From positions 1 to 64,000 of the forward strand of contig JADZCV010000045.1 of NCBI GenBank assembly GCA_020851375.1: a stretch of DNA of 64,000 nt, read 5' to 3'. The notes beneath the pieces are model-generated. The model did not search any database. It saw only the letters and a list, made by a program, of their open reading frames with translations, and had not been told where the DNA came from. The stretch is from Nitrospirota bacterium. Lineage in GTDB: Bacteria > Nitrospirota > 9FT-COMBO-42-15 > HDB-SIOI813. The position numbers were made by a program, and so were the translations under genes. Positions 15,440 through 23,846 of this stretch are shown one piece after another (position 1 is the stretch's first letter; the number at the start of each line of letters is the position of its first letter).

Positions 15440-16681
15440 ATGGCAAAAGGATTCTGGAAATCGGGCCACCCCCCCACTCTTCTTATGGCATTTCTTTACT
15501 TCGACATGAGCTTCATGTGCTGGATGGTAAACGCGGCAATGGCACCATTTATAAGCCAGCAACTTGGTCTTTCACCTTCACAAAAGGGACTCATGTTGTC
15601 AATACCCGTCCTGGCCGGGTCTGTACTTAGGATCCCCCTTGGGCTTGTGGCTGAAATAGTTGGTCGAAAAACTGCAGCAATAATCGGACTTGCTATAACT
15701 ATTGCAGCCATGTTCTATGGATTTGCCTTTGTAAATACCTATGCTGAGGTACTTTTAATGGGGGCTCTCCTTGGTGTGGCAGGGGCAAGTTTTGCAGTCG
15801 CCCTTCCACTTGGGGCCGGCTGGTTCCCACCACAGTACCAGGGACTGGCTATGGGTATAGCCGGCGCCGGAAACAGCGGAACAATATTCGCCGGACTTTT
15901 TGCCCCGCCCCTTGCTGAGATGTATGGCTGGAATGTCGTATACGGCTTTTTCGCAATCCCTATTATCGTCGTTCTTGTCCTTATGTGGATTGTTGCAAAA
16001 GAACCACCTGATAAGATGGAGAAGAAAAAGGCTACCCAATACCTTAAGGTATTGGCAGAAAAGGATATATGGGTATTTAACATCCTTTATTGGGTGACCT
16101 TCGGTGGATTTGTCGGGTTCGCCAGTTTCGTGCCAACCTTTGTAGCAGACCAGTATGGAATAAGCAAGGTTGCGGCCGGACAATTCATGATCCTCGTTGG
16201 GTTCTCCGCAAGTGCGGTACGTGTAGTCGGCGGCTGGTTCGCTGACAGGTTTGGCGGCATACGAGCCCTGAGCGGCATATACATAATCATTCTTATAGGC
16301 GCCCTGGCAGCAAGTTCACTCCCGTCACTATATGTCTTGCTAATTGCACTTTTTATTATGGCAGCAGGGATGGGGGCAGGCAATGGTTCAGTCTTCCAGT
16401 TGCTGCCTCTCCGCTTTCCACAGGCCAAGGCCATTACGTCTGGCATAGTGGGAGAATTCGGATCTCTTGGGGGTGCGTTTATCCCGATGATTATGGGCTG
16501 GTCCATGCAGTATATAGGAAATTACTCTTTAGGGTTTATCATATATGGCATAACTGCAATAATAGCCTTGTCTATACTTCTCATCGTCCAGAGAAAGTGG
16601 ACCACCAGCTGGGTGGGGAAAGGTGGCAAGGCTCTGCCTGAGACGAGAGAATATTCAAGTGAACCGACATGGGAAGCATAA
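15440..16681 (+). CDS. narK: NarK-family nitrate/nitrite transporter (module A)
   Basis: 413 residues, 12 hydrophobic segments. GIAGAGNSGTIFAGLFAPPLAE is the nitrate signature of helix 5 and GEFGSLGGAFIP the matching one in helix 11; both are diagnostic of the nitrate/nitrite porter family of the major facilitator superfamily. The start has a strong ribosome binding site (AAAGGAGGTG). It imports nitrate or exchanges it for nitrite at the inner membrane. It follows the kinase-regulator pair and overlaps the uspA-like gene by 13 nt. A close paralogue is at 40620-41846. Confidence 0.9.
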   Translation: MAKGFWKSGHPPTLLMAFLYFDMSFMCWMVNAAMAPFISQQLGLSPSQKGLMLSIPVLAGSVLRIPLGLVAEIVGRKTAAIIGLAITIAAMFYGFAFVNTYAEVLLMGALLGVAGASFAVALPLGAGWFPPQYQGLAMGIAGAGNSGTIFAGLFAPPLAEMYGWNVVYGFFAIPIIVVLVLMWIVAKEPPDKMEKKKATQYLKVLAEKDIWVFNILYWVTFGGFVGFASFVPTFVADQYGISKVAAGQFMILVGFSASAVRVVGGWFADRFGGIRALSGIYIIILIGALAASSLPSLYVLLIALFIMAAGMGAGNGSVFQLLPLRFPQAKAITSGIVGEFGSLGGAFIPMIMGWSMQYIGNYSLGFIIYGITAIIALSILLIVQRKWTTSWVGKGGKALPETREYSSEPTWEA

Positions 16682-17151
16682 AAGAATACAAATCACCACC
16701 CACAGAAGATCAAAATGAATACAGGAGTATAGTATGTCCTGTCAACGACTCTGCCTTGTCCATCAAGGGAGAGGAAACGGCTGCATACCTGAGCAAACTA
16801 TCCGGTGCCCGCCTCATTCTTCTGACTGTTGTAAACAAATGGAATAAAGCTGAACCAATGACGACGGATTCCCGTGAATGGAGTGACATTCATGATACGT
16901 GGCTGGGCGAGGGACGGGCATTACTGGAGAAGGCAGAAGATAATCTCAGGGAACAGGGCGTAATTAATATTGAGACAGTGCTCAGGGAAGGAGAAATCAT
17001 TACTGAAATACTTGCAGAGGCAAGGAAACGAAAGGCTGACCTGATAGTAATGTCTCTGCACAGGATTCCAATGAAACGCTTCCTTCCCTGGAGCATAATG
17101 AACAAGATAACCAGAAAAGCGCCTTGTCCTGTTTACTGGGTCTTTGATTAG
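16669..17151 (+). CDS. UspA-family protein lacking the ATP-binding signature
   Basis: 160 residues, coupled to narK by a 13-nt overlap. YRSIVCPVNDSALS starts the Usp fold; LIVMSLH and CPVYWVF are its later strands. The ATP-binding pattern G-x2-G-x9-G-S/T is absent: the region reads LHRIPMKRFLPWSI. The three Usp genes here share a family-specific segment, TTDSREWSDIHDTWLGEG in this copy. Location next to narK in both nitrate modules suggests a link to nitrate respiration, but the role is not known. Confidence 0.85.
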   Translation: MGSIKEYKSPPTEDQNEYRSIVCPVNDSALSIKGEETAAYLSKLSGARLILLTVVNKWNKAEPMTTDSREWSDIHDTWLGEGRALLEKAEDNLREQGVINIETVLREGEIITEILAEARKRKADLIVMSLHRIPMKRFLPWSIMNKITRKAPCPVYWVFD

Positions 17152-19353: not shown

Positions 19354-19794
19354 ATGGAATATCGAATTGTTCTCTGTCCAATTGATACCCCGGAGCATTC
19401 TCACAAAGGGATAGATACTGCAATGTATCTTAGCAGGATTTCAGGGGCAAGACTTGTCCTGCTACATGTAGTTGAGAACTGGTACAGGTCTCAGTCATTT
19501 ACCACAAACTCGCCTGAGTGGACTGCAATCCACAAGGAGTGGCTGGATGAGGGCAGAAAACTGCTGGAAGATGCTGAGTCAGCGGTGCGCAAATCAGGGG
19601 TCAATAATGTGGAAACAGTCCTTGCAGAAGGGGACATATCGCACGAAATAATTGCTGAGGCTAAAAAAAGACGGGTTGACCTGATCGTAATGACAACTGA
19701 ACGCTACTCAGGGATTGAAAAATTATTTATAGGAAGTGTAACAGACAGGGTGACACGGAACACCCCCTGCCCTGTCTTACTGATAAACGAATAG
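19354..19794 (+). CDS. UspA-family universal stress protein
   Basis: 146 residues, AGGAG 8 nt before the ATG. YRIVLCPIDTPEHS opens the Usp fold; VDLIVMTTERYSG, KLFIGSVTDRVTRNTPCPVLLI closes it. GS of the ATP motif is kept but the preceding G-x2-G is replaced (TTERYS), so ATP binding is doubtful. The segment TTNSPEWTAIHKEWLDEG is shared with the Usp proteins of both nitrate modules. It is transcribed alone from an extended -10 promoter and converges with the FmdB gene. Confidence 0.88.
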   Translation: MEYRIVLCPIDTPEHSHKGIDTAMYLSRISGARLVLLHVVENWYRSQSFTTNSPEWTAIHKEWLDEGRKLLEDAESAVRKSGVNNVETVLAEGDISHEIIAEAKKRRVDLIVMTTERYSGIEKLFIGSVTDRVTRNTPCPVLLINE

Positions 19795-21376: not shown

Positions 21377-21412
21377 TCCTGACATTGATATAGTTTATAA
21401 GGAGGGTTTACT

Positions 21413-21657
21413 ATGAGTCTATTAGATAATGTATTAGAGTCAATAGGTGTTACAGACACCCCTTCAAAGGTCATTGAAAACCCGTCTGAGACATTCTCAG
21501 GCACGCCGATTTCGCCTATAAAGTTTGGCATGCCAAAGGAGATAGAATCTATCTGTCCTGAATGCAAGGTATCACTTAGGTACTGAAAGAGAAGATAATT
21601 TCCGAAGGAAGGCCCAGGGAAGTTGAGATATTTGCAAAAAAGACGGGTATTGAGTGA
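21413..21657 (+). pseudogene. Small Cys-containing gene, apparently frameshifted
   Basis: The first frame (21413-21586, 57 codons) starts MSLLDNVLESIG after AAGGAGGGTTTACT and ends ICPECKVSLRY-stop. A frame one base back begins at CTG (21583) and runs LKEKIISEGRPREVEIFAKK to 21657. Restoring one C in TAC-TGA gives a continuous 81-residue protein with a CxxC. This looks like a one-base deletion, a sequencing error, or a -1 frameshift site. No family is recognised. It lies between cobO and the AAA-M41 operon. Confidence 0.5.
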
Positions 21658-21695: not shown

Positions 21696-23846
21696 ATGAA
21701 TGCGAAAGAATTTAAGAATGAAATAAAGATTCACGTTGAAGCAAGATATCCTGTGCTATGGCTTGTTTCCTTCGAGGAGCGCAGGGTAGAGAAACTTCTT
21801 GAAGGCCTGGCCGCTGAAACTGACTTCAAATACTGGTGCTGGTCTGTATCAAGGGGGCTGTACAGCGGTGAAAAAAAGAAGTGGGAGGCACTCGGCAGGG
21901 AAAAGGTACTGACGACGATTGAAGAGAAAATAGCAAAGAGCCAGAATGATAATAATCTCTTCCTGCTGAAAGACATATCAGGATATTTTAACTCACACGA
22001 ATTTCTAAGAAAATTCAGGGACTTGCCTGCTATTATAGAAGAGAACCACCCCCTGAACACAGTATGCATCCTGTCACCTACCCTGACAGAGATTCCACCT
22101 GAGCTGGAAGAGGATATCGTGGTAATTGAGTTGTCGCTTCCTGACTATGATGAGATTGAGGAGATGGTCACAACGACCTTTGGGAAACTTATTCCTGAGA
22201 AATGGTATCCTTCAACGAGGGCAATATTGTACAAGTCCCTTCAGGGACTTTCGATGGATAACATTCGAAGGGTTGTCAGAAAGGCTATCACGCGGAATAA
22301 CGGTAAACTTACAGAAGACTGCATAACATTCATCCAGGAAGAGAAGCAGCAGATTATCAAAAAACAGAAGACACTCGATTACTATACACATAAGGAAACA
22401 ATTGAGCATATTGGCGGCCTTGGAGAAATCAAGAAGTGGTTCATTGAAAGGGAGCATGTATTCCGCCTTAGCAAGGAGAGGATTGACACACTCGGCCTTG
22501 ACATCCCAAGGGGACTTATGCTTATCGGCGTTCCAGGATCAGGTAAAAGCCTTTGCTGCAAGGCCCTTGCCGGAATATGGAACCTGCCGCTGCTTAGACT
22601 CGATGTTGGAAGATTATTTGGATCAACAGTCGGTGAGTCTGAAAAGAATATCAGAAAATGCATCCAGCTTGCAGAGGCTGTAAGCCCCTGCATCCTCTGG
22701 ATTGATGAGATAGACAAGGCATTTGGCGGAGTGGGAGGCTATCAGGGTGATTCAGGTACGCAGCTTAGGGTATTTGGGACATTTGTTACCTGGCTGCAGG
22801 AAAAAGAAAAACCTGTTTTTGTTATAGCAACGGCAAATGAGCCAAAAAACCTGCCTCCTGAGTTGTGGCGCAAAGGAAGATATGATGAGGTCTTTTTTGT
22901 AGACCTGCCAAGTGTCGAGGAGAGGGAAGAAATATTCAAGATACACATGGAGAACCGTGGACAGAAGACAACACCGTCTGATTTAAGGGAATATGCACAG
23001 AATAGTCACGGATACACGGGTGCCGAGATTGAGCAGGCTGTGAAAGATTCCATTGTGACGACCTTTAACAGGCTGCATGAGGGTAAGGCGGGTGAAGATG
23101 CTGAAGTGATGGTCAGCGAACTGTCAGGCCTTGATGTAAACAAGGCTACGGTTCTTGCTTCCGTCAGGAGCATAACGCCCCTTTCAATCCTGAAAAAGGA
23201 AGAGATAGACGAGCTTAGAAAATGGAGTCACAGGAGGGCAAGGCCTGCCTCACGCTCCCTCTTCCTGCAACGTGTGGAAAATCTTGGTGAACAGGAAAAG
23301 AGGAATATCGCCATACACGAGGCTTCTCACACTATCATGATGTGGCACCATTTCAGAAAGACTCCTGTTTTTATCAGTCTGGACACATATAAGGATTACA
23401 CTGTCTACCTGCCCCTTACAGATTCAATGGAACATACCTTTACCAAGAAAGAGCTCGAGAAAGAGATCGGGATCATACTTGCAGGCATGGTCGCTGAAGA
23501 GGAGCTTATTGGAAATGACTCCAAGACAGTTGGCGCATCACATGACCTTATTGCGGCTACGGTTATCGCAAGGAAGATGGTCGTTGAATTCGGATTTGGT
23601 GACATAATAAGAAATACAAGCCTTTTGGCATTGCAGGACTTTGCACTGACATCAGGCAAGGAAATATTTGACGATGTACAAAGAATATTGGAAAATGCAA
23701 AGGCAGAGACAGAAGCTGTAATCAAGAGAAACCGGGACGTTCTCATGAGCCTCGTTGCAGAACTTGAAAAAGAGGTGCTGCTGAATGGTGAGGCTCTGGG
23801 TAAGTTTTTCAGCTATCATCACGTAGTGGACAAAATGGGCGTTTGA
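21696..23846 (+). CDS. Ycf46-like AAA+ ATPase fused to an FtsH-type M41 peptidase
   Basis: 716 residues, no membrane helix. Residues 1-230 are the Ycf46-type N-terminal domain. AAA+ core: HIGGLGEIKKWF (238-249), Walker A GVPGSGKS (278-285), RLDVGRLFGSTVGESE, Walker B ILWIDEID (333-340), sensor ATANEP (378-383), WRKGRYDE (391-397). From about 500 the sequence turns into an FtsH-like M41 peptidase: HEASH (541-545, zinc motif HExxH), AGMVAEEELIG, and GASHDLIAATVIARKMV, where Asp617 aligns with the third zinc ligand of FtsH. Unlike FtsH it is soluble. First gene of the operon with DUF1257, DUF2997, radical SAM and Hsp70-like genes. Probably an ATP-driven cytosolic protease; substrate unknown. Confidence 0.85.
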   Translation: MNAKEFKNEIKIHVEARYPVLWLVSFEERRVEKLLEGLAAETDFKYWCWSVSRGLYSGEKKKWEALGREKVLTTIEEKIAKSQNDNNLFLLKDISGYFNSHEFLRKFRDLPAIIEENHPLNTVCILSPTLTEIPPELEEDIVVIELSLPDYDEIEEMVTTTFGKLIPEKWYPSTRAILYKSLQGLSMDNIRRVVRKAITRNNGKLTEDCITFIQEEKQQIIKKQKTLDYYTHKETIEHIGGLGEIKKWFIEREHVFRLSKERIDTLGLDIPRGLMLIGVPGSGKSLCCKALAGIWNLPLLRLDVGRLFGSTVGESEKNIRKCIQLAEAVSPCILWIDEIDKAFGGVGGYQGDSGTQLRVFGTFVTWLQEKEKPVFVIATANEPKNLPPELWRKGRYDEVFFVDLPSVEEREEIFKIHMENRGQKTTPSDLREYAQNSHGYTGAEIEQAVKDSIVTTFNRLHEGKAGEDAEVMVSELSGLDVNKATVLASVRSITPLSILKKEEIDELRKWSHRRARPASRSLFLQRVENLGEQEKRNIAIHEASHTIMMWHHFRKTPVFISLDTYKDYTVYLPLTDSMEHTFTKKELEKEIGIILAGMVAEEELIGNDSKTVGASHDLIAATVIARKMVVEFGFGDIIRNTSLLALQDFALTSGKEIFDDVQRILENAKAETEAVIKRNRDVLMSLVAELEKEVLLNGEALGKFFSYHHVVDKMGV

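Follow-up and report, generated by a model that had tools for sequence, protein, structure and literature searches.

The AAA+ protein Ycf46 and the small protein Ycf35 (DUF1257) are conserved in cyanobacteria and many algal plastids. The zinc protease FtsH possesses a single AAA+ tier and is held by a membrane anchor, and FtsHi-type pseudo-proteases are known for the loss of the zinc motif. In the open-access literature (subscription journals mostly lie outside this coverage), no biochemical activity was reported for Ycf46 or Ycf35 in the papers found, and no paper was retrieved on a fusion of Ycf46 with an M41 peptidase or on the five-gene module described here. For Synechocystis, it was described that loss of ycf46 (slr0374), which lies in a stress-induced operon, lowers the activity of the carbonic anhydrase EcaB (PMC7496141), and that ycf35 is clustered with fed7 and the DUF2997 gene (PMC4284462).

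The window, i.e., the whole stretch of 64,000 nucleotides that was analyzed, encodes a protein (P0001) in which a Ycf46-type AAA+ part is followed by an M41 peptidase, as had been claimed in the original prediction. Its gene is the first gene of a conserved operon, the features of which are summarized in Table 1.

Table 1. Features of the fusion gene and of the downstream operon genes (positions in the window).
Feature	Position	Strand	Basis
Ycf46-type AAA+ protein with M41 peptidase, P0001, 716 aa	21696..23846	+	Pfam AAA and M41; alignment of 24 family members
N-domain (residues 1-230), predicted degenerate AAA+ fold lacking Walker A	21696..22385	+	hhalign; strand/helix order in AF2 model; Cdc48 match
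Active AAA+ domain, residues 231-460	22386..23075	+	motif residues invariant in 42 Ycf46-like sequences; tree
Ycf46 C-terminal segment, residues 461-519, last residues RARPAS	23076..23252	+	alignment; ends of matches
Peptidase M41 domain, residues 531-696	23286..23783	+	Pfam; model compared with FtsH
HEASH zinc/catalytic motif, H541 E542 H545	23316..23330	+	24/24 invariant; aligned to FtsH HEAGH
Asp617, presumed third zinc ligand	23544..23546	+	invariant 24/24 and in aligned FtsH
DUF1257 (Ycf35)-related protein, P0002, 113 aa	23848..24189	+	hhalign to DUF1257; phrog_20456; family HMM matches
DUF2997-related protein, 62 aa	24237..24425	+	sub-threshold Pfam DUF2997; phrog_23133; synteny 23/23
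NrdG/PflA-like radical SAM protein, P0003, 187 aa	24447..25010	+	Fer4_12 111 bits; Radical_SAM; NrdG 114 bits
N-terminal repeat region (~1-440, boundary inferred) and Hsp70-type ATPase, P0004, 938 aa	25007..27823	+	Pfam HSP70 74 bits; internal repeats

P0001 matched the Pfam models AAA (residues 274-403, 109 bits) and Peptidase_M41 (76 bits at a cut-off of 29.9 bits, E 4.7e-21, profile positions 4-184 of 191). The M41 similarity that the original prediction had left to a profile search was thus found; it rose slightly, to 78.7 bits, when the C-terminal region was used as a separate query, and both models were matched in all 21 family members scanned. In a phmmer search, the same region recovered FtsH structures (E 8.8e-13), and the alignment placed HEASH on HEAGH and GASHDL on GAENDL. 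Furthermore, no hydrophobic span was detected in P0001, where no 19-residue Kyte-Doolittle window reached the mean of at least 1.6 taken as the criterion for a membrane span (maximum 1.17, in the P-loop region); FtsH proteins tested on the same scale showed two such spans. By this hydropathy test, P0001 lacks an FtsH-type N-terminal transmembrane anchor, in agreement with the predicted soluble nature.

The active AAA+ domain features Walker A (GVPGSGKS), Walker B (WIDEID), sensor-1 N381, the arginine fingers R392 and R395, and the pore-loop residue F308, all but the last being recorded as invariant across the 42 Ycf46-like sequences. In the AAA tree, the fusions and the stand-alone Ycf46-like proteins formed one group (100/100), and grouping of the fusions with FtsH was rejected (p 7e-31); a second tree with more relatives gave the same result. 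On the grounds of these sequence comparisons, P0001 is a true domain fusion of a Ycf46-type AAA+ protein with M41. Among plasmid proteins, stand-alone AAA proteins, cyanobacterial ones included, were the best matches, with up to 38% identity over residues 2-519; the phage family phrog_8638 spanned residues 2-525 (E 6e-125). The Ycf46-type assignment accordingly covers the full length, N-domain and C-terminal segment included, the name resting on plasmid-borne cyanobacterial relatives annotated as 'AAA family ATPase'. It had been stated beforehand that Ycf46 proteins end after the AAA+ domain; for the plasmid-borne cyanobacterial and other relatives compared here, this held true, as they stop at ~519-522 (query numbering), just before M41. 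Full-length stand-alone Ycf46-like AAA proteins were also observed in mycobacteriophages (records PP763603, 58780-60339, KT281796, and others), with ~28% identity to residues 9-520.

For residues 1-230, no convincing Pfam family match was obtained. The N-domain profile of the Ycf46-like family matched the AAA domain of the same family in hhalign (prob 93.3%, E 2.7e-7, residues 37-195), strands and helices alternate through the N-domain in the AF2 model of P0001 (pLDDT 80), and the Foldseek alignment of this model to Cdc48 extended across 565 columns (TMq 0.52). A P-loop was absent from the Ycf46-like N-domains, apart from one chance-like motif in a single sequence. The N-domain therefore looks like a degenerate AAA+ domain, and the most plausible order in P0001 is a degenerate AAA+ tier, an active AAA+ tier, and M41. 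Neither this nature of the N-domain nor the conserved operon of five genes figured in the original prediction.

Within the M41 part, H541, E542, H545, and D617 were invariant in all 24 aligned family members, the first three aligning with the HEAGH motif of FtsH and D617, located in GASHDL, with its third-ligand Asp; AEEELIG was likewise present, so that the motifs named in the original prediction were all recovered. Membership in the M41 family is indicated by the profile match over the domain and by HExxH with a downstream Asp, the latter from sequence comparison only. Pairwise dN/dS values of 0.05-0.11 show strong purifying selection on the M41 part, which evolves faster than the AAA+ part (0.01-0.05) and is also the less conserved of the two; these low values indicate that both halves of the fusion are maintained. 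The E-values, the reappearance of the fusion at more than 20 loci, and the dN/dS values of the M41 codons together exclude a chance origin.

The isolated M41 domain, modelled from 25 sequences (pLDDT 75, pTM 0.76), retrieved FtsH-family proteases or FtsHi motor subunits in all 50 structure matches listed and superimposed on the isolated FtsH protease domain 2di4 with a target-normalised TM of 0.77, which bore out the claimed likeness to the FtsH fold; the alignments behind the models of P0001 and of M41 included four FtsH rows, which biases them toward an FtsH-like outcome. Model confidence was intermediate for the whole protein and for M41 alone and fell below 50 at residues 575-580 and 640-652. 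Since the whole P0001 model reached only a low query-normalised TM against FtsH (0.3), the predicted relative placement of the domains is unreliable. A phylogeny of the M41 part against FtsH, as proposed earlier, recovered the fusions as monophyletic (100/100) on a long stem (2.56); with regard to the donor, an origin of the domain inside FtsH and one outside it both remained compatible with the tree (AU p ~0.2).

A scan of bacterial genomes yielded 32 loci, 23 of them with full-length fusions (70-92% identity), the carriers being metagenome-assembled genomes (MAGs) of Nitrospirae and "Deltaproteobacteria". In a sample of 118 genomes taken around one "Deltaproteobacteria" carrier, the fusion occurred in five genomes (open frames of 711-743 aa, >1380 bits), and 16 genomes contained shorter matches only (not above 404 bits, in open frames that mostly measure 496-576 aa); nothing intermediate between these two classes of score and length was found in the sample. 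One longer open frame, in G024, was dismissed as an upstream frame extension only.

Synteny downstream of the fusion was conserved. All loci whose contig reaches far enough contained the respective partner, namely the DUF1257-related gene (24/24), the DUF2997-related gene (23/23), the radical SAM gene (22/22), and the Hsp70 gene (21/21). Gaps of 1, 47, and 21 bp occur after the fusion gene, and there is an overlap of 4 bp between the last gene and its neighbour. The family profile of P0002 matched annotated DUF1257 proteins over the full length (hhalign, prob 97.7%, E 1.4e-12), and its HMM also recognized DUF1257 genes of other modules; against Pfam PF06868, P0002 remained below threshold, four of 13 family members giving matches (best E 0.066). 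The 62-aa protein reached 20.2 bits (E 5.6e-4) against Pfam PF11211 (DUF2997), under the cut-off of 24.1 bits, and a weak hhalign match to DUF2997 (prob 46%), and shares phrog_23133 with a Pfam-confirmed DUF2997 protein. P0003 passed the general Radical_SAM cut-off of Pfam, scored under the cut-off of 126 bits of the NrdG model TIGR02491 (NCBIfam), and is 35-37% identical to radical SAM proteins encoded beside stand-alone Ycf46. For the N-terminal part of P0004, internal repeat matches were obtained, and no Pfam repeat family was matched.

Upstream of the fusion gene (21407-21651), a radical SAM gene of 570 aa survives only as a remnant, with ~53 N-terminal and 24 C-terminal residues left and the middle gone; in three other loci (L005, L056, and L058), it lies immediately before the fusion gene in intact form. 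Two similar small ORFs of UspA-type appearance, as judged by eye, lie ~2.2 kb apart at 16669-17151 and 19354-19794.

Relatives of the operon partners were also detected around stand-alone Ycf46-like genes on plasmids. A Pseudanabaena plasmid carries Hsp70, DUF1257, and DUF2997 in this setting; DUF1257 and DUF2997 accompany the gene on one plasmid each of Bacillus, where a 4Fe-4S protein is added, and of Planktothrix; and on plasmids of Treponema and Arthrobacter, an NrdG-like protein is encoded beside it. In the genomes sampled around fusion carriers, Ycf46, DUF1257, DUF2997, and Hsp70 genes cluster repeatedly, a HEAT-repeat protein being added twice. Where Ycf46 stands alone, these HEAT-repeat proteins (L107, 1488-3545; L111, 2820-4667) are encoded next to Hsp70, whereas Hsp70 of the window operon itself bears a fused repeat-like region. 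A separate M41 gene was found in none of 27 neighbourhoods of stand-alone Ycf46, in which the positive controls were recovered. Because the partner genes recur together with and without M41, the Synechocystis data included, we infer that Ycf46 and Ycf35 may be parts of one machine.

The proposed function is that of a soluble, self-contained, ATP-dependent zinc metalloprotease, in which a Ycf46-type AAA+ unfoldase carries a C-terminal FtsH-family M41 domain and works within the conserved module; we consider this likely, and the protein is probably an active AAA+ zinc protease of new architecture. The degenerate tier (1-230) and the active tier (231-460) would form a ring motor, presumably hexameric, drawing substrates past the F308 loop through the pore into a putative ring of six M41 domains for proteolysis, each with a zinc site of His541, His545, and Asp617 and Glu542 as general base. 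In relatives with Ycf46 alone, the module probably remodels proteins, and in the fusion lineage, remodelling would be coupled to destruction. Substrate choice and delivery may most likely be ascribed to the repeat-Hsp70 protein and/or the two small proteins, the protease probably being fed by its Hsp70 partner; for the small proteins this is a guess, as is a role of the radical SAM protein in sensing or modifying the substrate.

Part of the evidence could also be explained in other ways. A gene-calling or assembly artefact uniting two genes is of negligible probability, as it draws on the general risk of MAGs, and the identical fusion in more than 20 loci, the selection on both halves, and the absence of a separate M41 gene beside the stand-alone relatives exclude it. 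It is likewise extremely improbable that P0001 represents a divergent FtsH with a lost membrane anchor: the M41 domain and the domain order are FtsH-like and FtsH_fam (NCBIfam) is the top match, but its 172 bits compare with a cut-off of 600 bits, the N-domain and segment 461-519 are of Ycf46 type, and canonical FtsH coexists with the fusion in the window's genome and in four other fusion genomes checked. The AAA tree rules this origin out.

More substantial is the idea that M41 serves mainly as a structural ring scaffold, as in plastid FtsHi, the protein acting as a motor or chaperone that does not cut. The models of P0001 and M41 also matched Ycf2-FtsHi motor subunits, M41 is the less conserved part, and the stand-alone relatives act without it; however, the invariance of the two His, the Glu, and the Asp in 24 family members differs from the zinc-motif loss of FtsHi, which makes a mainly structural role quite improbable. 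A conflict (anti-phage or anti-plasmid) module, with the fused protease as effector or regulator, appears unlikely as well. That plasmids carry stand-alone Ycf46 modules and phage contigs stand-alone Ycf46-like genes would fit such a role, as would the similarity of the AAA domain to IetA ATPase models and the occurrence of AAA+ and Hsp70 parts in published NTP-dependent conflict systems (PMC7159879). On the other hand, the IetA matches are confined to the AAA domain, the content of the fusion operon is highly conserved with no variable effector seen there, and the conservation of Ycf46/Ycf35 in plastids and cyanobacteria suggests a housekeeping function. Concerning known defence systems, PADLOC returned IetA (AAA domain), pVip (radical SAM fold), and, weakly, PDC-M61B (Hsp70 part), all of which were rejected.

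The natural fusion to a protease points to unfolding and threading of proteins as the task of the Ycf46 motor, and the shared operon connects Ycf46 with Ycf35 and DUF2997 as well as with Hsp70 and a partner of the Fe-S/radical SAM type. The fusion makes the job of Ycf46/Ycf35 in chloroplasts and cyanobacteria easier to test, and it would add an architecture of ATP-dependent proteases beyond the motors of FtsH, Lon, Clp, HslUV, and the proteasome. Only tentatively, we envisage that Ycf46 forms a single machine for protein remodelling with Ycf35/DUF1257, DUF2997, a partner of the Fe-S or radical SAM type, and an Hsp70/helical-repeat protein. This machine would be ancient and widely transferred; plastid ycf46 and ycf35 could be its remnants, and in the bacterial lineage of the fusion it may have turned into a cytosolic zinc protease that depends on ATP and uses Hsp70 as the basis of its substrate adaptor.

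Compared to known systems, residues 1-519 of P0001 align end to end with stand-alone Ycf46-like proteins, which stop there, whereas P0001 continues into M41. With FtsH and the i-AAA and m-AAA proteases (MEROPS M41), it shares an M41 domain of matching fold with HExxH...D, located C-terminal to AAA+, but it differs in its non-FtsH AAA+ part, the missing transmembrane anchor, and the extra degenerate AAA+ tier; M41 scores amounted to 72-82 bits in fusions compared with 217-257 bits in most complete FtsH matches, and within the window's phylum they separated into an FtsH set (fragments scoring lower than complete matches) and a fusion set (73-82 bits). The model suggests a two-tier AAA+ arrangement as in Cdc48/p97, although the first tier is degenerate and a protease is attached. 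The cyanobacterial DUF2997-Ycf35 (DUF1257)-fed7 cluster (PMC4284462) contains relatives of two small operon partners together with a ferredoxin, whereas the operon in the window features the radical SAM protein, Ycf46-M41, and Hsp70.

A counterpart without a clear anchor is an unrelated family of plasmid proteins from Bosea, Rhizobium, Azospirillum, and Methylorubrum (661-689 aa, annotated as 'AAA family ATPase'), in which AAA+ is followed by an M41 domain containing HEAGH; a clear transmembrane span is missing (one borderline hydropathy window of 1.67 in the Azospirillum protein). Its members form a separate AAA clade near FtsH and possess another N-domain; DUF1257, DUF2997, radical SAM, and Hsp70 genes were absent from the short flanks seen. 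Metallophosphoesterase genes lie near three of these four loci (L116, 772-2829; L117, 910-2895; L118, 796-2793; L119, 766-2835). The original prediction of a new class of cytosolic M41 protease was therefore too broad, as this alphaproteobacterial family shows that M41 without a membrane anchor is not unique to Ycf46-M41; by the comparisons made here, what is new is the Ycf46-type motor together with its module.
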